IMG/VR virus record: IMGVR_UViG_3300046513_000019
Location: 1-25,850 of that record
Strand: one strand, 5' to 3'
DNA: 25,850 nucleotides
From: a virus
In this document: positions 2 through 9,216 of the stretch, in pieces
How the letters are laid out: each line of letters opens with the position of its first letter
Numbering within the stretch: the stretch's first letter is position 1
Made by a program: the position numbers and the translations under genes
The notes under the pieces: generated by a model
What the model saw: only the letters and a program-made list of their open reading frames with translations
What the model was told of the DNA's origin: nothing
Databases searched by the model: none

Positions 2-439
2 AGCAATTCCCACCGCCCGAAATGGACGGATGAAGCCATAGCTGAGGCTGCCAAGATGTGGAAGGCCAATATCCCCACGTCAATGATTGGCGAACACTTC
101 GGCGTTAACCGCGTGACCATCCTTGGCGTTGCCTATCGGAACCGTGATCTATTCCCGATGAAGGGCAAGAAGCAGAAGCTTGCCATGCGTTCGACACCTC
201 GCCAGCGCGTCGAGAAAGTCAGACGCGATGTTGAGGCCTTCCACGGCGAGACATTACCGGAAGTCCTTCCGAACGAATACGACTTCGGACGGCTGCCAGA
301 TGCAAAGACGCTGATGGATCTCGATCGCGGCGAATGCAAATGGCCGGTCAACAAGGGCAGCCCGTTCATGTTCTGCGCTGCGGAGGCAGAAGGAAATTAC
401 TGCAACCACCATTTCATACGCTCGCGGCGGGCGGCTTAA
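2..439 (+). CDS. gcrA-like: GcrA-family transcriptional regulator (5' end outside window)
   Basis: The reading frame is open to the window edge. Before the first internal ATG (56) it already encodes a GcrA-type N-terminus: KWTDEAIAEAAKMWK, then a helix-turn-helix-like stretch (IPTSMIGEHFGVNRVTILG). The C-terminus carries the other family hallmark, a small Cys/His module, GECKWPV...FCAAEA...YCNHH. In Caulobacter GcrA binds the sigma-2 region of RpoD and activates promoters near CcrM-methylated GANTC sites. The family is restricted to alphaproteobacteria and their phages. The copy here sits just upstream of the NusG-like gene with a 13-base gap, so both may be late-gene regulators. Family assignment is strong; the role in the phage is inference. 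The true start lies before the window. Confidence 0.88.
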   Translation, partial: SNSHRPKWTDEAIAEAAKMWKANIPTSMIGEHFGVNRVTILGVAYRNRDLFPMKGKKQKLAMRSTPRQRVEKVRRDVEAFHGETLPEVLPNEYDFGRLPDAKTLMDLDRGECKWPVNKGSPFMFCAAEAEGNYCNHHFIRSRRAA

Positions 440-452
440 CGAGGGAAACGAT

Positions 453-1058
453 ATGAAGGCGGCACATTGGTATGCTTTGAGGCTCAAGCCCATGGCGCAG
501 CGTCCATCTCGGCAGGACGATCGCTTGACAAACATCGAAATATCATTGCGGCAATCTGGCTTTGAGCATTACATGCCGCTCGAACGGCGTGAAATCATCC
601 ATCACCGGACAAAGAAGCCGATCGATAAGCGATATCCACTCATTCCAGGCTATGCCTTCGTCTATAATCCATATGACTGGCTTGCTCTCAGCAAATGCGA
701 TTTCGTCGCAGGCGTCTTGGGAGTGAGAGGAACGCCATTATCGATCCTAAATACCCAGGTTGACGCCATTCGCGATGCAGAGGCTATCATCTCGGCAGAA
801 TACGAGCGTTCCAAGGCCTTACGCAGGCAGAAAGAGAAGGAACGCGACGAACACATACCGCAACGCCGTCTCCGCGTCATGTTCCCCGCTGGAACGCCTA
901 TCGCCATCGACGGCACACATTCCATCCTCGGAGGCATGACCGGCCGTGTGGTGGACGCTACGGGGCGCCAGACCATCAAGGCGATCATTGAAACGCTTAG
1001 CGGCATGGTGAATGCAGAGCTGCCGTTGGAATACGTGCAGAGGCAGGAGGTGGCGTGA
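453..1058 (+). CDS. NusG/RfaH-like transcription elongation factor (NGN + KOW)
   Basis: This 201-residue protein begins with an NGN domain (about residues 4-90: HWYALRLKPMAQ, IEISLRQSGFEHYMP, then YPLIPGYAFV, the usual last strand). A charged linker follows (about 105-135), then a KOW domain (about 143-195) including GTPIAIDGTHSILGGMTGRV and VNAELPLEYVQ. Housekeeping NusG is about 180 residues, and the linker here is longer and very basic. NGN domains bind the RNA polymerase clamp and KOW domains contact Rho, NusE or nascent RNA. Specialised paralogues such as RfaH and LoaP act as processive antiterminators. The gene has a good ribosome site (GAGGGA) and lies just upstream of the promoter/terminator region and late operon. 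A role as late antiterminator is inferred from this position. Clustering is with GcrA, not with secE/rplK as for host nusG. Confidence 0.85.
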   Translation: MKAAHWYALRLKPMAQRPSRQDDRLTNIEISLRQSGFEHYMPLERREIIHHRTKKPIDKRYPLIPGYAFVYNPYDWLALSKCDFVAGVLGVRGTPLSILNTQVDAIRDAEAIISAEYERSKALRRQKEKERDEHIPQRRLRVMFPAGTPIAIDGTHSILGGMTGRVVDATGRQTIKAIIETLSGMVNAELPLEYVQRQEVA

Positions 1059-1288
1059 TGCGTCGTTTGGTTATGGTTCCCGATGGATGGCCTTGTAAGC
1101 TTGGAGAATGCCTGCCCGGACATTTCGTCTTCAAAGATAGGCTTTGCTTCAAGGATCAATATGGCAGCGAAGGCAACAGTTACAACGAGGCTGGCGAGAT
1201 CTTCTGGGGCGGCGTTTCATCAGAAGACGAGAGACAAGAGCTTATCGTTCAGCCTGTAAATCCATTGTGGGAAGAGTACGAAGAGTAG
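1058..1288 (+). CDS. Small conserved-looking phage protein of unknown function
   Basis: This encodes 76 residues starting at ATG 1058, whose A is the last base of the preceding TGA stop (TGATG), so it is probably translationally coupled to the NusG-like gene. A GTG one codon earlier (1055) is also possible. The protein has two Cys (DGWPCKLGECLPG), aromatic residues and an acidic C-terminus ending in LWEEYEE. No signal peptide or membrane segment is visible. I do not recognise a named domain, although the opening VPDGWPC pattern resembles small hypothetical proteins of rhizobial phages. No function is assigned. Confidence 0.7.
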   Translation: MRRLVMVPDGWPCKLGECLPGHFVFKDRLCFKDQYGSEGNSYNEAGEIFWGGVSSEDERQELIVQPVNPLWEEYEE

Positions 1289-1317
1289 TTGAATTCATAA
1301 CGATATGGATATATTCT
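1289..1317 (+). promoter_or_regulatory. Candidate sigma70-type promoter after the NusG-like operon
   Basis: A -35-like TTGAAT (1289-1294) is followed by an AT-rich stretch with two possible -10 elements: TATATT (1310-1315, 15-nt spacer) or TATTCT (1312-1317, 17-nt spacer). It begins directly after the stop codon of the 76-residue gene and precedes the structured non-coding stretch. Both boxes are imperfect, so this is tentative. Confidence 0.3.
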
Positions 1318-1367
1318 CCGTGTCAAGTGATTTGCGGGATGTTCTGTAGCGGCAACGCCGGTCCTCA

Positions 1368-1482
1368 GGGAAGAGCTTCACGGCTTCCCGCGTGGCTTGA
1401 TATTCTCTAATTCCATGCGTCCCGAACTTCTGGGACACTCCGGCCAGTGAAGCATTAAATGCAGGCACTAGGGCGCATGGAA
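1368..1482 (+). other. Inverted-repeat cluster, possible structured leader RNA
   Basis: No convincing gene lies in 1289-1725. Within it a 9-bp perfect inverted repeat, TTCCATGCG (1411-1419) and CGCATGGAA (1474-1482), encloses a GTCCC/GGGAC hairpin (1419-1436) and the near-palindrome GCATTAAATGC (1452-1462). The outer stem can extend by CCC (1421-1423) pairing with GGG (1471-1473), which would disrupt the GTCCC/GGGAC hairpin, so two folds are mutually exclusive. A further hairpin GGGAAG/CTTCCC (1368-1373 with 1384-1389) lies just upstream. This could be a regulatory leader or small RNA, or simply a hairpin-rich spacer. Confidence 0.4.
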
Positions 1483-1490
1483 GACCTTTC

Positions 1491-1518
1491 TTGACGTCCA
1501 GGCCATCTTGGCTAAAGT
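1491..1518 (+). promoter_or_regulatory. Candidate late promoter upstream of tRNA-like element
   Basis: TTGACG (1491-1496, five of six matches to the -35 consensus) is followed by a 16-base spacer and TAAAGT (1513-1518, four of six matches to -10). It would start transcription near 1525, about 40 bases before the terminator-like hairpin at 1562-1595. This layout resembles a phage late promoter with an early terminator. No other element of comparable quality was seen before the structural genes. Confidence 0.38.
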
Positions 1519-1561
1519 CTTAATTGCGTTCATGCCTTGCCGTCCTGTGGCTTGGTTACGT

Positions 1562-1595
1562 TGATGGCGGTGAATCGGAAGTTCGTCGCCATTTT
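1562..1595 (+). terminator. Intrinsic-terminator-like hairpin
   Basis: Bases 1564-1574 pair with 1582-1592 to give an 11-bp stem (ATGGCG, two G-U pairs, GAA) around the 7-base loop TCGGAAG. The T run at 1592-1595 follows. The stem is good but the T run is short. It lies between the 1491-1518 promoter candidate and the tRNA-like element, and could be the target of a late antiterminator. Confidence 0.45.
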
Positions 1596-1631
1596 CAATT
1601 CTGATATCGCACATCAGCCTGATCAACTGGT

Positions 1632-1703
1632 GGTCCCGTAGCTCAGTTGGTCAGAGTGTCGCGGTTGACGCGAAGGTCGCCGGTTCGAATCCGGCCGGGT
1701 TTG
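1632..1703 (+). tRNA. tRNA-like element with 5-nt anticodon loop (probably non-decoding)
   Basis: The D arm is canonical (GCTC 1641-1644 with GAGT 1654-1657, loop with GG). The T arm is perfect (GCCGG, TTCGAAT, CCGGC, 1679-1695) and the variable loop AGGTC is standard. The 5-bp anticodon stem TCGCG/CGCGA (1659-1663 with 1669-1673) is perfect but encloses only GTTGA, two bases short of the normal seven, so no anticodon can be assigned. The acceptor stem GGTCCCG/CGGGTTT has four Watson-Crick pairs, two G-U pairs and one T-T mismatch, and no CCA is encoded. It may be a decayed tRNA, a tRNA mimic or a remnant of an integration site. Confidence 0.6.
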
Positions 1704-1725
1704 GCGAGCTAGTTAAGGGATTGAG

Positions 1726-3124: not shown

Positions 3125-3514
3125 ATGGATGAAGACACCCGAAATAACGGGCAGAAAACGGGAAAGTCCACGCCGCCGGTCGAGCATCAGTTCAAGCCAG
3201 GCAATCCAGGCAGACCAAAGGGCGCCCGAAACAAGTTGGGTGAAGCGTTCATTGAGGCGATGCACGACGACTTCGAAGCTCATGGCGTTGCAGCGATCTC
3301 CAAGGTTCGCGACGAGAAGCCAGACCAATACCTCAAAGTGATTGCGTCGATCCTGCCGAAGGATCTGAACGTCAACATCAACAACATGGATGATTTGACG
3401 GATGACCAGCTTATCCAGCGCATCCGCTCTCTTGATGCAGCAATCCGGCCTTTCCTCGATACTCAAGGAGCAGGCATCGTTGATGGCGGAACTGGACCGG
3501 AGACGGCGCACTAA
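3125..3514 (+). CDS. terS: DUF5681-domain protein, probable small terminase subunit
   Basis: This encodes 129 residues. Residues 23-39 contain the DUF5681 signature FKPGNPGRPKGARNK, a basic DNA-binding-like motif, followed by two helices (LGEAFIEAMHDDFEAHG; QYLKVIASILPKD) and an acidic tail. Proteins with this motif frequently lie next to the large terminase and are taken as small terminase subunits that recognise the packaging site. AAAGGA precedes the ATG, and the terminase gene overlaps its last 32 bases. The 68-base gap before it has a long-range inverted repeat GAATATTA/TAATATTC (3056-3063 with 3101-3108). The terminase role rests on position and motif, not on a diagnostic fold. Confidence 0.7.
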   Translation: MDEDTRNNGQKTGKSTPPVEHQFKPGNPGRPKGARNKLGEAFIEAMHDDFEAHGVAAISKVRDEKPDQYLKVIASILPKDLNVNINNMDDLTDDQLIQRIRSLDAAIRPFLDTQGAGIVDGGTGPETAH

Positions 3515-4841
3515 TCTGCTATCGACCTATAAGCCTTATTCGAAGCAGATTGCCTTTCACGATGCTGGGTCTGATTTCCGCGAACGTCTGTTCATGGCGG
3601 GCAACCAGCTTGGCAAGACATTGGCCGGTGCCGCTGAAGGGGCGATGCATCTCACCGGTCTTTATCCAGACTGGTGGACGGGTAAGCGCTTCAATAAGCC
3701 GATCATCATGCTTGCGGGATCTGAATCCTACGAGCTGACACGTGATGGTGTCCAGCGCCTGCTTATCGGCCCTCCGATGTCCGAAGAGGAATGGGGCACC
3801 GGGTATATCCCGAAGAACACGATTGTAGCGACAACACGGCGTTCTGGTGTCTCGGGCGCCCTGGATAGCTGCACGGTTCGGCATGTGTCGGGCGGAACGT
3901 CAACGCTGCTTTTCAAGGCCTATGAGCAGGGCCGGGGCAAATGGCAGGCGAACACGGTTGATTACGTCTGGTTCGATGAAGAGCCGCCGGAAGACGTTTA
4001 TTTCGAGGGCATTACCAGAACGAACGCCACGCGCGGCTTGATCGCCGTCACGTTCACGCCTCTCAAGGGCATGAGCACGGTCGTTGCTCGCTACATCCTG
4101 GAGAAGTCTCCAGACCGCGAAGTCATCACCATGACGATCGATGACGCGGAGCATTACACGCAGGAAGACCGGCAGAAGATCATTGACAGTTATCCGCCAC
4201 ATGAGCGGGAAGCACGAACAAAGGGCATACCGTCACTCGGCTCCGGCCGCATCTTCCCGGTTTCTGAGGAAGCGCTCATCGTCTCACCATTCGAGATCCC
4301 CAAGCATTGGGCACAGATTGGCGGCGCAGACTTTGGTTGGGACCATCCATTCGGTGGCGTCGGTTGCGCATGGGATCGTGATGCAGATGTTTTCTACGTC
4401 ACCAAGGAATATCGGGAACGAGAGGCAACGCCGCTCATTCATAGCGGGGCTCTGAAGCCTTGGGGCCTGTGGCTTCCCTGGTCATGGCCGCATGACGGTC
4501 TGCAGCACGACAAAGGCAGCGGCGAACAGCTTGCATCGCAATACCGGGCGCACGGCCTGAACATGTTGCCAGAGCGCGCAACCTTCGATGACGGGACAAA
4601 CGGCGTCGAGGCCGGACTATCGGACATGCTGCAGCGCATGCAGACGGGCCGCTGGAAAGTGTTTTCGACCTGCACGCAATGGCTTGAAGAATTCCGCCTC
4701 TATCACCGCAAGGACGGGAAAGTCGTCAAAGAACGTGACGACGTGATTTCCGCATCTCGATACGCCCTGATGATGAAGCGCTTTGCCAAGGTCAATCTTG
4801 GCGATGCCAACTGGAACTTCAAGGCTCGAAAGGTCGTATAA
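3483..4841 (+). CDS. terL: Terminase large subunit (P22 gp2-like)
   Basis: The packaging motor ATPase and headful nuclease, 452 residues from ATG 3483. Walker A is AGNQLGKT (residues 39-46), Walker B is VDYVWFDEE (159-167) and the coupling motif TFTP is at 190-193. The RNase H-like nuclease begins with GGADFGWDHPF (280-290, Asp283 and Asp287 likely metal ligands) and ends near KERDDVISASRYALM. The opening STYKPYSKQIAFHDAG and MHLTGLYPDWWTGKRF are typical of P22-type terminases. ATG 3483 is preferred over 3402 because AAGGAG (3465-3470) lies 12 bases upstream and the overlap with the small subunit stays short. The portal follows with no gap. Confidence 0.92.
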   Translation: MAELDRRRRTNLLSTYKPYSKQIAFHDAGSDFRERLFMAGNQLGKTLAGAAEGAMHLTGLYPDWWTGKRFNKPIIMLAGSESYELTRDGVQRLLIGPPMSEEEWGTGYIPKNTIVATTRRSGVSGALDSCTVRHVSGGTSTLLFKAYEQGRGKWQANTVDYVWFDEEPPEDVYFEGITRTNATRGLIAVTFTPLKGMSTVVARYILEKSPDREVITMTIDDAEHYTQEDRQKIIDSYPPHEREARTKGIPSLGSGRIFPVSEEALIVSPFEIPKHWAQIGGADFGWDHPFGGVGCAWDRDADVFYVTKEYREREATPLIHSGALKPWGLWLPWSWPHDGLQHDKGSGEQLASQYRAHGLNMLPERATFDDGTNGVEAGLSDMLQRMQTGRWKVFSTCTQWLEEFRLYHRKDGKVVKERDDVISASRYALMMKRFAKVNLGDANWNFKARKVV

Positions 4842-6944
4842 ATGGCAGAAATGACCGACGAGGCCCTTGCAAAGCTTGTATCGACACTCGTCAAGGACTG
4901 CGAGAACTACCGGGATCAGCTTTCGATCGACCGCGTCAAGGCCATGGAATACTTCGATGGCGAGATGAGGGACGTTCCTGTCGAGGATAACCGGTCAAAG
5001 GTTGTCTCTCGCGATGTCCGCTCAGCGATCACGAAGGTACTGCCGTCTGTCACCCGTGTCATTCTAGGTAATGACAAGGTCGTTGAATACGAGCCTGTCG
5101 GAGAGGGCGATGAGGAGAAGGCCGAGCAAGCCAGCGATTACATCAACTATGTCGTCTTCCCGGAGAGTGACGGATACGAAGCCGTTCAGGATGCGGTCTA
5201 CGACGCCCTGAAGCTCCGCAACGGCATAATTCGTTGGTGGTATGACAAGCGCATCAAGGTCAGCGTTTCCAAGCATACCGGCCTTGATGAAGCGGCACTC
5301 GTTCAACTCGTCCAGGGTGATGACGTTGAGGTTTTGGGGCAGGAGCAGCGCCAAGAGCAGATCGACACGCCGCAAGGCCCGGTCATGCAGACGATCTACG
5401 ATGTCAATATTCGTCGCAAGGCTCCATATGGCTGCACCAAGCTTGCCGCTGTTCCGCTTGAGGAATTCCTCATCCACCCGGATGCGCTTGACATCGAGGA
5501 CAGCCCGATCGTCGGCATCAACCAGCGCCTTCGCCGGTCTGATCTCGTCGCCATGGGTTACGATCGTGAGAAGATCGACGCTCTGCCTGTCTCTGGCAAG
5601 GACGACGACAAGGAGCAGGAAGAATACACCCGCCGTCGCGATGTGATTGAAGACGACGATTATACCCAACGCGCGCTTCAGGAAATCGAGTATTACGAGC
5701 TTTACGTCAAGGTCGATGCTGACGACGACGGGATTGCCGAGTTGCGTCGCCTGGTGTTCGCCGGCGGCACGGCGCTCAAAAACCTGCTGGATAACGAGGA
5801 ATGGGACGAGGTTCCCTTCGCAGACATCATTGCCAAGCGTCGGCCGCATCAGCGCGAAGGTGATTCCGTCACAGACGATATGATGGATATCCAGAAGATC
5901 AAGACAGTTCTGCTGCGCCAGACCATGGATAACCTCTATTGGCAGAACAACCCGCAGCCGATCGTTCAGGAAGGGTCTGTCGTCAACCCGAACTCGATCC
6001 TCAGCCCGAAGTTCGGCGAGCCGATACGGGTGACGCAAGGCACGGATGCCCGCGCCGCGGTGTTTTACAATCAGGTGCCGTTCGTCGCTGAAAAGTCGTT
6101 CGCCATGCTCGAATACCTCGACAATGAGGCAACTGACAGGACTGGAATATCAGAAGCATCAAGCGGTCTCGCTCCTGATGCGCTGCAAAACATGACGGCG
6201 AAAGCCTCTGGCATGATCGAACAGGCCGGCATTGGTCAGACAGAATTGATGGTGCGCACGATCGCCCACGGCCTCAAGCGGGTGTTCCGCGGCCTTCTGC
6301 GCATGGTCATCAAGCATCAGGACAAGCCGCGCACCGTGCGCCTACGCGACCAGTGGGTGACGTTCGACCCGCGAGAATGGAATGCCGAGATGGACGCCAC
6401 GGTCAATACCGGCCTTGGTGCCGGCACCCGTGAGCGCGACATGATGATGATGCAGCAGGTAATCGGGCTGCAGGAAAAACTCCTCGTCTCGCTAGGCCCT
6501 GACAATCCATTCGTCAAACCGGACAACGTTTACAACGCGGTTTCGAAATTCGCGGAATCCGCCGGAGCTCGATCGACAGAATTGTATTTCACCAAGCCAG
6601 ATCCGGCAGAAATACAGGCGAAGATGGACGCCGCAAAGAACCAGCCAAACCCTGAATTGCAGAAAGTCCAGATGCAAGCGCAGGCCGATGCACAGGCAGC
6701 GCAGATGGATGCGCAGATCCAGCAACAGAAGAACCAGACAGACGCCGATATCCAGATGCAGAAACTGCAGGGTGAATTCGCGCTTAAGCAGGAGCAGTTG
6801 ACCAAGGAACTGCAGTTGAAGCGTGAACAGCTTATTGCCGAACTTGAGTTGAAGCGCCAGCAAAGCGCCGCAGAGATCGCGATGAACGCCCAGATAACTC
6901 AGGCTCGCGCAGCTCAGGTCGAAGTCGGAGGCCAACCCGGATGA
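4842..6944 (+). CDS. Portal protein (P22-type)
   Basis: The 700-residue dodecameric portal forms the DNA channel at the capsid vertex, close in length to P22 gp1 (725). The N-terminal region (DQLSIDRVKAMEYFDGEM, NRSKVVSRDVRSAITKVLPS) is typical of the P22 portal family, as is NEATDRTGISEASSGL near residue 430. The C-terminal 110 residues, from about 585, are Gln/Ala/Lys-rich and predicted as a long coiled coil (repeats of QAQADAQAAQMDAQ and KELQLKREQLIAELELKRQQ). This is compatible with the helical barrel that projects into the P22 head. The start abuts the terminase stop. The next gene overlaps by four bases. Confidence 0.9.
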   Translation: MAEMTDEALAKLVSTLVKDCENYRDQLSIDRVKAMEYFDGEMRDVPVEDNRSKVVSRDVRSAITKVLPSVTRVILGNDKVVEYEPVGEGDEEKAEQASDYINYVVFPESDGYEAVQDAVYDALKLRNGIIRWWYDKRIKVSVSKHTGLDEAALVQLVQGDDVEVLGQEQRQEQIDTPQGPVMQTIYDVNIRRKAPYGCTKLAAVPLEEFLIHPDALDIEDSPIVGINQRLRRSDLVAMGYDREKIDALPVSGKDDDKEQEEYTRRRDVIEDDDYTQRALQEIEYYELYVKVDADDDGIAELRRLVFAGGTALKNLLDNEEWDEVPFADIIAKRRPHQREGDSVTDDMMDIQKIKTVLLRQTMDNLYWQNNPQPIVQEGSVVNPNSILSPKFGEPIRVTQGTDARAAVFYNQVPFVAEKSFAMLEYLDNEATDRTGISEASSGLAPDALQNMTAKASGMIEQAGIGQTELMVRTIAHGLKRVFRGLLRMVIKHQDKPRTVRLRDQWVTFDPREWNAEMDATVNTGLGAGTRERDMMMMQQVIGLQEKLLVSLGPDNPFVKPDNVYNAVSKFAESAGARSTELYFTKPDPAEIQAKMDAAKNQPNPELQKVQMQAQADAQAAQMDAQIQQQKNQTDADIQMQKLQGEFALKQEQLTKELQLKREQLIAELELKRQQSAAEIAMNAQITQARAAQVEVGGQPG

Positions 6945-7189
6945 CGGACGCTGAAAAGGTCGCACAGGCCCGCGCTATTCTCGACATGCCGCTGTTTCAT
7001 GTCCTTTGGGACGAGATGGAAGCAAGCGCGGTCAACGCATGCATCTACGCTCGGGCGACCGAAGACGAACCAGAATACGAAGTGCGCGCCGGCAAGGCTG
7101 CCGAGGCCCGCGCAATCAGGAATTTCCGCAGTAAGCTGAACGCTCTTGTGAGCGAAGCCAATACCCAGCGGAAAGGCGCACCGGCATAG
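6941..7189 (+). CDS. Small helical protein between portal and scaffold
   Basis: This encodes 82 residues beginning in an ATGA overlap with the portal stop. It is almost entirely helical and charged (VLWDEMEASAVNACIYA, EARAIRNFRSKLNALVSEA), with no membrane segment. Position between portal and scaffold is common for small unannotated phage proteins that may help procapsid assembly, but no known domain is seen, so function is unassigned. Confidence 0.7.
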   Translation: MTDAEKVAQARAILDMPLFHVLWDEMEASAVNACIYARATEDEPEYEVRAGKAAEARAIRNFRSKLNALVSEANTQRKGAPA

Positions 7190-7218
7190 GGCCGATGCAT
7201 CAACCATAGGGAAAATCC

Positions 7219-8196
7219 ATGTCTATAGGCGAGAGTGCCAACCTGCCCGCCGGCGGGAGCAAAACCGTTGAACCCTCGACTGATCTCAACAACCCGGAAA
7301 ACCTGAATTTCCTGGATTCTGACGACGAAGAGCAGAACACCCAGACCGAAGGCGAGCCAGGGATTGAAAGCGAGACGGATGAGGCCTCCGAAGATGGCCA
7401 AGAGTCCGACGATTCCGAACAACAGGAAGAAACCGAGGATTTGGCGGAAGGCGAAGAGCCGGAAGTCAAGGACAAGGAAGAAGCTGTTGTTATTACCCTG
7501 AAAGGCGGCGAACAGGTTTCTCTTGAGGAACTGAAGCTAGGGTACATGAAGGATCGTGACTATCGCCACAAAACGCAGGAGACGGCGAACAAGTCAAAGT
7601 CTCTTGATGAAATGACGACTCGCGTCACACGCACCGTTGACGCCATCGCATCACACCTGGCCGGCATGTTGCCGGAAGAACCACAGCCCACGTTGGCCAT
7701 CCAAGACCCGAACGAGTACACGCGTCGCAAGGCGATCTACGATTCGGCAATGGCCCAGGTCAACAAAATCATTCAACTCGCCAACGAGCCGAAGGACGTA
7801 GGGAACAAGCTCACCAAGCAGCAGGAAGAGGAGCGTATCAGCTTCGAAGATGCCAAGCTTGCGGAAGCATTCCCCCAGACCCGGAAATCTGCCGAAGAAC
7901 GCAAGAAATTCTTCGAACAGACCTTCCAGACGGCCAAGGATCTCGGTTTCACCGATGAAGAGTTACGCGGTCAGATCGACCACAGGATGTTCAAGCTGGC
8001 GCACTATGCCCGTCTCGGCCTCCAGGCTGAACAGGCAAAGGGCAAAGCGATGACGAAGGTGGCTAACGCCCCTCCTATCGCCAAGGTAAAGGCAAAGGGA
8101 CCGGCTGCAGAGCAGGCCCGCGCCAATCAGGACGCGATGAAGAAGTTGTCGAGAACCGGGTCGATCAAGGACGCAATGTCGATCGACTTCGATTAA
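7219..8196 (+). CDS. Scaffolding protein
   Basis: This encodes 325 residues. The first 95 are extremely acidic (runs of Asp, Glu, Ser and Gln, no obvious fold). Next is the scaffold-like segment LKGGEQVSLEELKLGYMKDRDYRHKTQE (about 93-120) and a long helical, charged central part. The C-terminus is basic (residues 270-315: KGKAMTKVANAPPIAKVKAK), the usual coat-binding end of P22/phi29-type scaffolds. It lies directly before the capsid gene with a 24-base gap. Scaffolds line the procapsid and leave before or during packaging. There is no visible protease motif, so release rather than self-cleavage is expected, as in P22. Confidence 0.8.
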   Translation: MSIGESANLPAGGSKTVEPSTDLNNPENLNFLDSDDEEQNTQTEGEPGIESETDEASEDGQESDDSEQQEETEDLAEGEEPEVKDKEEAVVITLKGGEQVSLEELKLGYMKDRDYRHKTQETANKSKSLDEMTTRVTRTVDAIASHLAGMLPEEPQPTLAIQDPNEYTRRKAIYDSAMAQVNKIIQLANEPKDVGNKLTKQQEEERISFEDAKLAEAFPQTRKSAEERKKFFEQTFQTAKDLGFTDEELRGQIDHRMFKLAHYARLGLQAEQAKGKAMTKVANAPPIAKVKAKGPAAEQARANQDAMKKLSRTGSIKDAMSIDFD

Positions 8197-8220
8197 TCCC
8201 ATCTTCGAAGGATCAATATC

Positions 8221-9216
8221 ATGGCAGTCATTACCAACACCTTCCGCACGACGAATGCGGTCGGTAATCGCGAAGAACTGTCCGACGTGGTATCTCGTAT
8301 CACGCCGGAAGACACCCCCATCTATTCCCTGATCGAAAAGGGAACTTGCAAATCCGTTCACCCGGAATGGGAAACGGACGAGCTTGCAGCGCCTGGCGCC
8401 AATGCCCGCGAAGAAGGTGAAGATTACACCTTCGATGCGATCACGCCGCCGGCACGCCTCGGAAACTACACCCAGATCATGCGCAAGGACTGGATCATCT
8501 CCGGTACGCAGGAAGTGGTTGACGAAGCCGGTAACGTGCAGAAGCGCAAGTATCAGAAGCTGAAGAAGGGCGTTGAGATCCGTAAGGATGTTGAGTTCGC
8601 GCTTGTTTCGACCACAGCTTCCGTTGCCGGCGCAACCCGTCAGCTCGGTTCGATCAACACTTGGACGATCACCAACGTCTCGCGTGGCGGTTCCGGCACC
8701 AACGGCGGCTTCAGCAGCGGCACGGGCCTTACGGTTGCTCCTGGCGCTGGTACGCAACGTGCGTTCACTAAGGCAATCCTCGATACCGTTATGCAAACTG
8801 GCTACACTAACGGCGCCAACTTCCGGCACGTTGTCTGCAGCCCTTATGTCAAGTCGGTCTTCGTGACCTTCATGTCTGACACGAACGTCGCTTCGTTCCG
8901 CTATGCGGTTTCCAAGGGTGGCGAGCGCAATACCATCATCGCCACGGCGGATTATTACGAAGGTCCGTTCGGCACTGTGATGATCCAGCCAGACCGCGTT
9001 ATGGCAGGGTCTGCGACCCTCGCACGCAATGCGTTCTTCCTCGATACCGACTTCATCGAGTTCGATTGGCTCCGCAAGATCCAAGAGGACAAGGATGTCG
9101 CAAAGACCGGTGACGCTGACAAGGGCGTGATCATCGGCGAAGGCACGCTGAAGGTGAAGAACGAAAAGGGCCTCGGCATCGCCGCTGACCTCTTCGGCCT
9201 CACGGCTTCCACGTAA
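8221..9216 (+). CDS. Major capsid protein (SU10-type, DUF5309 family)
   Basis: This encodes 331 residues. The N-terminus MAVITNTFRTTNAVGNREELSDVV and the block ITPEDTPIYSLIEKG...PEWETDEL are typical of the SU10 major-capsid family (formerly DUF5309), an HK97-fold coat protein. A Gly/Ser-rich loop (about 155-178: GGSGTNGGFSSGTG) is followed by the conserved shell domain (FRHVVCSPYVKSVFVTFM; DYYEGPFGTVMIQPDRVM). The family pairs with scaffold and decoration genes in the same order as here. A strong ribosome site (GAAGGA) precedes it. The coat is from a different family than the P22 coat, although portal and terminase are P22-like. Confidence 0.88.
   Translation: MAVITNTFRTTNAVGNREELSDVVSRITPEDTPIYSLIEKGTCKSVHPEWETDELAAPGANAREEGEDYTFDAITPPARLGNYTQIMRKDWIISGTQEVVDEAGNVQKRKYQKLKKGVEIRKDVEFALVSTTASVAGATRQLGSINTWTITNVSRGGSGTNGGFSSGTGLTVAPGAGTQRAFTKAILDTVMQTGYTNGANFRHVVCSPYVKSVFVTFMSDTNVASFRYAVSKGGERNTIIATADYYEGPFGTVMIQPDRVMAGSATLARNAFFLDTDFIEFDWLRKIQEDKDVAKTGDADKGVIIGEGTLKVKNEKGLGIAADLFGLTAST

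Follow-up and report, generated by a model that had tools for sequence, protein, structure and literature searches.

Among the described systems that the present locus resembles, LoaP of Bacillus velezensis is a NusG paralogue that goes together with the dfn leader hairpin and terminator (PMC12691694). As to phages, genes named 'NusG-like transcription antiterminator' are found in the GenBank records of RHph_N28_2, RHph_TM3_3_3 and phiLM21 (locus L066), where they were annotated by similarity only, and a 2025 prophage survey reported a NusG-like antiterminator gene in every phiLM21-like prophage (PMC12429752). These three genes are homologous to the one considered here and occupy the same position, and the leader RNA described below was found in all three phages. 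A review and a survey of NusG paralogues (PMC7819879, PMC7593976) yielded no phage member. The preliminary description of this locus, made from its sequence, had treated a phage late antiterminator of the NusG family as not described; this has to be corrected for the genes, which bear such names already, but it stands for their target, leader RNA and mechanism, of which we found no description in the literature outside subscription journals and preprints. The naming of the genes is already known, while the leader RNA and the conserved promoter are, to judge from these sources, new here.

The analysed stretch of DNA (the window) is a virus record of 25,850 bases, apparently a fragment. It is related to Rhizobium podoviruses of the SU10-like kind, among them RHEph18, with which it shares 77% identity across 37% of the query. 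Its features are collected in Table 1. With a NusG of their own, a late-operon promoter and a structured RNA, viruses of root-nodule bacteria look like carriers of a NusG-built late on-switch in the place of lambda Q. The fold, the genomic position, the conservation of promoter and RNA and their co-occurrence are demonstrated below by computation.

Table 1. Features of the window around the start of the late region
Feature	Position	Strand	Basis
gcrA-like gene, end of early region	56..439	+	PF07750 27.4 bits vs cut-off 26.9; phrog_16311
Phage NusG paralogue	453..1058	+	PF02357 E 1.7e-7; AF2 model
Small ORF, 77 aa, between nusG and late promoter	1055..1288	+	weak PHROG 12239
Proposed late promoter	1289..1317	+	-35 TTGAAT 1289-1294, 17 bp, -10 TATTCT 1312-1317
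Conserved structured late-leader RNA	1326..1391	+	covariance model R1; covariation in relatives
Hairpin 1 of leader RNA	1336..1365	+	outer-stem pair counts, alignments A6 and A10
Hairpin 2 of leader RNA	1368..1389	+	stem 1368-1373/1384-1389, covariation in relatives
Candidate intrinsic terminator, weak T tract	1563..1593	+	fold -14.8 kcal/mol, z -2.75
tRNA-Gln (UUG) in late leader	1631..1705	+	ARAGORN; Rfam RF00005 50.3 bits
Terminase large subunit	3402..4841	+	PF03237 E 4.6e-40, PF17289 E 2.8e-28
Portal, scaffold, major capsid genes of late operon	4842..9216	+	SU10_portal, SU10_MCP, phrog_3927

The phage NusG paralogue and its place before the late genes

The preliminary description had seen a NusG/RfaH-like gene next to a gcrA-like gene and upstream of late genes, and these assignments hold. 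The 201-residue product of the former scores 32.1 bits in Pfam against a cut-off of 22.2 and matches PHROG 25909 and 6386, both designated 'transcription antiterminator'; the Q protein family gave no match, Pfam returning the NusG family only and PHROGs these two antiterminators. The gcrA-like neighbour just passes its Pfam cut-off, and the terminase large subunit gene (terL), one of the earliest genes that can be recognised in the late operon, is followed by portal, scaffold and capsid genes identified by Pfam and PHROG. The NGN/KOW fold, on which the earlier assignment had been made dependent, is present in the AF2 model (pLDDT 88.9), which consists of an NGN domain (encoded at about 465-773), a long linker helix and a KOW barrel (about 876-1049). 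The NGN domain is closest in structure to that of RfaH (Z 11.6, 98 aa aligned, rmsd 1.9), and the KOW domain aligns with that of E. coli NusG with Z 8.5 (55 aa, rmsd 1.6).

A tblastn search against phages matched four records (three phages), all of them rhizobial and all with genes named antiterminators. Searching viral contigs with the single protein gave no match and an alignment was required as the query; the one built from the four phage records (A1) retrieved 80 viral loci together with nine prophage loci in Rhizobium, Sinorhizobium and Metarhizobium genomes. Two architectures are present among these proteins. The window protein and its like possess a KOW domain; in the larger set, of the phiLM21 and RHph_N28_2 type, the NGN domain is intact (Z 12.7 to RfaH NGN) and the C-terminus contains no KOW sequence and is predicted to be helical, AF2 giving a KOW domain for the window protein and helices for the phiLM21 type. 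In the phiLM21-type proteins among loci L029-L086, the predicted helical domain standing in the place of KOW comprises the C-terminal 60 residues. In the phylogenetic tree, which the preliminary description had proposed as a check, the phage proteins form one group, outside which stand eight housekeeping NusGs from rhizobial hosts, whose genomes still contain NusG genes of their own. Judging by these sequence comparisons, the phage protein is a specialised paralogue, distinct from the housekeeping nusG product of the host.

The position of the gene is constant. In all 41 related viral records in which a terminase large subunit was detectable by a TerL match, nusG precedes terL by 1.4-4.0 kb and both are on one strand, i.e., it has the Q-like placement just before the late operon in 41/41. 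In RHEph18 (L002 40385-41032) and RHph_N3_2 (L003 38498-39115), close relatives that lack this NusG, its place is occupied by a similar-sized protein of phrog_15385. We rejected it as a NusG, since it is not one by Pfam, and it has no sequence relative in the PDB; by its location it is a candidate replacement late regulator. One more observation concerns the Microcystis phage vB_MweS-yong2 (OM681334.1 43606-44530, 1-2763; L204 and L205), whose KOW-type NusG gene is the last one before the terminase genes if the record is circular. A strong terminator-like hairpin lies between them, and the leader model R1 (see below) has no match in this nusG-terminase region. The layout with nusG before the terminase may extend beyond rhizobial phages.

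The proposed late promoter and the leader RNA

Comparison of the DNA 3' of nusG revealed a conserved block, which consists of a sigma70-like promoter followed by a structured RNA. The promoter has a fixed position relative to the RNA in 54 non-identical loci; it reaches at least 8/12 matches with a spacer of 16-18 in 80% of them vs 1.4% of random positions, bearing in mind that these loci are kin and cannot be counted as 54 separate events. The promoter of many phages is situated within the 3' end of nusG, so that the -10 element or the TGATTT sequence overlaps the stop codon, whereas in the window and its group it is placed after extra sequence beyond nusG; in the window, the small ORF found there has no Pfam match. 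The late promoters of loci L009, L013, L023, L034 and L104 carry an inverted repeat, CAAATCA..TGATTTG, around the -10 element and the start site, which from its sequence is a possible operator.

The transcript is predicted to start at about 1326-1327. The RNA begins with TGATTTG; next comes the first hairpin, whose internal loop (TGTTCTG..) is conserved, and after it the second. The inner stem of the first hairpin is GCG/CGC or GTCG/CGAC, and there is an optional apical stem flanked by GGACC..GGGAATACTCG. In the window the outer stem of this hairpin is 1336-1340/1361-1365, the inner stem is 1349-1351/1356-1358, and the conserved side of the internal loop reads TGTTCTGTA. The loop of the second hairpin is AGCTTCACGG, and its TCAC can pair with the 5' GTGA (1327-1330). 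The observed value for this GUGA/UCAC pairing was reached by 3 of 1000 shuffles, a comparison that ignores the kinship of the sequences, and the pairing is absent in phiLM21-type leaders; it is weakly suggestive of a pseudoknot.

We took the structure of the leader from covariation in relatives, because the window leader folded alone adopts another minimum-energy structure with a stability no better than that of shuffles. In the alignment A6 (17 sequences) changes on both sides are found at 13 of 19 pairs, and in the outer stem of the first hairpin at all six (pair counts in A6 and A10). The covariation score of A6 is 0.357 vs 0.128 in shuffles, none of 500 reaching it, and it falls to 0.17 or less when the partners are slid by 1-3 columns. 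When 52 sequences were aligned to the model, a score of 0.518 vs 0.154 was obtained (again 0/500), this alignment being fitted to the structure and hence biased towards it. Covariance model R1 matches the window at 1328-1391 with 59.3 bits (E 1.1e-9), the window having been among its training sequences. As for known RNAs, Rfam shows no leader-RNA family in 1240-1640 up to E 5, and its sole match in the window is the tRNA.

The RNA, the nusG gene and the late operon occur together. A search of 1.09 Mb with R1, blind to position, gave 55 matches, of which 53 fall in the late leader and have the orientation of nusG. In most of the 41 terminase-bearing records the RNA is thereby placed where the late region starts; RHEph18 and RHph_N3_2 have no match. 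On phiLM21-type leaders R1 scores weakly (E about 0.004-0.3, one at 5), because these leaders were left out of the model. In the converse direction, three patterns drawn from the RNA alone and run over 2.9 million viral contigs found 63 viral loci. An NusG ORF lies within 1.6 kb upstream in 55 of these; of the remainder, five carry a NusG gene at another place of the record, two are truncated by the contig end and one is without NusG. In Rhizobiaceae genomes R1 has eight matches, in 6 of 298 genomes, six of them beside NusG (one NusG being broken) and two with no NusG found nearby, and in a class-wide sample of 289 genomes it has none; the large genome scans used stricter filters and a model not built for diverged groups, so that absence in them is weak evidence. 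The start of the element is, in the majority of the phages, inside the nusG stop codon or 15-40 nt past it, and in the group of the window it is 170-460 nt from nusG. In four records the RNA is 2.0-3.6 kb away from nusG, still preceded by a promoter and still about 2 kb before terL, the TerL match starting about 1.6-1.8 kb after it. The proximity of the RNA to terL in these records, far from nusG, shows that it belongs to the late operon. Locus L067 has a second copy of the leader RNA (8657-8740) about 1 kb after nusG, the first, diverged copy following the gene directly.

Of 68 leaders, 29 have a strong terminator-like hairpin (-12 kcal/mol or better) within 310 nt, compared with 17% of random windows; the most convincing ones are compact hairpins about 100-130 nt into phiLM21-type leaders. 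In about half of the set a clear intrinsic terminator is absent from the vicinity of the RNA. We considered a terminator directly 3' of the RNA as a universal feature and rejected it on this count. The stretch after nusG had been described as devoid of a convincing gene; it contains the tRNA-Gln gene, and the conserved promoter and leader RNA lie further upstream. In 22 of 52 loci the late leader contains tRNA genes, which follow nusG in the same orientation, and other parts of the loci have none; across the 52 they are mostly Met-CAT, with Gln, Arg, Asn, Gly, Ser and Val also present. Just after the tRNA the window has a small ORF with a hydrophobic stretch (1726-1941), which matches a phage holin family weakly and below the cut-off (E 0.05). 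The leaders of loci L010, L015 and L043 share a further motif, GTCCGACTAGGGCA..TTCGAGGCAATGCC..ATCGGGAAGG.

A probable mechanism and its alternatives

The anatomy of the locus, i.e., a regulator at the end of the early region, a late promoter, a 5' element, terminators or an untranslated leader, and the late genes, leads us to regard it as a late-gene antitermination module, in which the NusG paralogue is loaded at the leader for processive antitermination. We give this reading a probability of about three in four. We infer antitermination and its targets, loading and RNA binding from RfaH, LoaP and lambda Q. The paralogue would be made from the last recognisable regulator gene of the early region. 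The host RNA polymerase would start at the sigma70-type promoter (1289-1317) and at once transcribe the 65-nt leader (1326-1391), where the leader RNA and/or the conserved TGATTTG start would load the paralogue onto the elongation complex, its NGN domain occupying the polymerase site to which NusG binds. The paralogue would then travel with the polymerase along the late operon, transcription of which would no longer be stopped by the terminator(s) of the leader, by Rho or by the lack of translation in the tRNA-bearing leader. Rho acting on long untranslated leaders with tRNAs is a possible second target of antitermination.

Both the KOW-bearing and the helical members carry the common leader RNA, which suggests that it is recognised by the NGN/linker part. 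In its full form the proposal is of a phage late switch class: a NusG paralogue recruited by a dedicated, possibly pseudoknotted leader RNA, the late promoter often within the 3' end of nusG, and in many members a change of KOW to a helical domain with the RNA kept, which would imply that NGN/linker reads it. We put this fuller version only slightly above even odds.

The paralogue might instead be loaded via the non-template DNA at a pause site, in the manner of RfaH and ops, with TGATTTG at about +1 to +8 and the hairpins being only signals of pausing or termination. TGATTT is indeed the most conserved part of the element, and the best structural match of the NGN domain is RfaH; but the strong compensatory changes in the stems count against it, and the ops element (GGCGGTAGYNT) has no match within two mismatches on the + strand of 1289-1600. 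We regard loading through DNA as unlikely. The leader RNA could also modify RNA polymerase by itself, like put of HK022, the NusG paralogue having a separate general role. That the transcript opens with an RNA of two hairpins fits this, as do three loci with the RNA in which no NusG was found nearby, but with a NusG gene on the record in 60 of the 63 RNA-bearing viral loci we deem such a division of roles distinctly improbable.

In phiLM21-like phages promoter, RNA and terminator form compact units of about 120 nt, similar to the short leader RNA made from lambda pR'; these units lend some colour to the idea that the stretch from promoter to terminator yields a stable small trans-acting RNA, its linkage with nusG being inherited synteny. 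We find this hard to accept in view of the four records in which the RNA is 2-3.6 kb from nusG and still next to terL, and of the many leaders without a terminator directly after the RNA.

As for the switch that the preliminary description had placed further downstream, with a promoter at 1491-1518 and a terminator at 1562-1595, we give it very little credence. The promoter matches at 9/12, but it is one of two such matches where shuffles give 2.6 per 4 kb, i.e., it is at chance level. The hairpin is real in that it folds at 1563-1593 (z -2.75), but its T tract is short (TTTTCAATT), and 1400-1630 of the window has no blastn relative in any fetched locus. A better conserved promoter and RNA are found upstream, the conserved element lying 170-270 bases before the site originally indicated. 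The general idea of a late switch operated by NusG gains from the position of the gene, the co-conserved promoter and RNA, and the tree, whereas the cis parts originally named were mostly wrong. Finally, the element could act on nusG, as a regulator 3' of the gene (for autoregulation or termination), and not as a late leader; this would suit its usual location at or shortly after the stop codon, but is the least probable reading of all given the larger distances in the window group and the four records, with a promoter directly before the element.

Comparison with known systems

If the antitermination reading is true, phages have built a late switch from the universal elongation factor NusG, i.e., an analogue of Q whose RNA target is defined. 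With a NusG paralogue of phage type and a candidate RNA for its recruitment, one could directly test how specialised NusGs are brought to their operons, and members devoid of KOW would be a test of what this domain is for. The reading would also explain the numerous genes of rhizobial prophages annotated as 'NusG-like antiterminator', and the RNA model would mark the starts of late operons in unannotated phage contigs.

With the Q/pR'/qut/tR' system of lambda the locus shares a regulator before the late operon and the succession of late promoter, short leader, terminator and late genes; it differs in having a protein of the NusG family and a covarying leader RNA where lambda has a DNA Q-binding element. 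The put RNA of HK022 likewise has two hairpins close to where a phage transcript begins, but here the RNA is linked to a dedicated protein, belongs to a late and not an early transcript and is unrelated in sequence. RfaH is likewise a specialised NusG paralogue, and its NGN domain is the closest to ours in structure; in contrast to the RfaH/ops system, there is no ops in the leader and the RNA covaries, and the helical C-terminus of the relatives, lacking KOW sequence, is unlike the switching domain of RfaH. As to LoaP, a NusG paralogue, a hairpin in the 5' leader RNA and a leader terminator before a long operon are common to both systems (PMC12691694). The present paralogue differs in being phage-encoded, in other hosts, with many members devoid of KOW, and its RNA is a two-hairpin element at the transcript start without a closing loop of the UNCG type, no UNCG loop closed by C-G being found among the consensus loops of the leader-RNA alignments.
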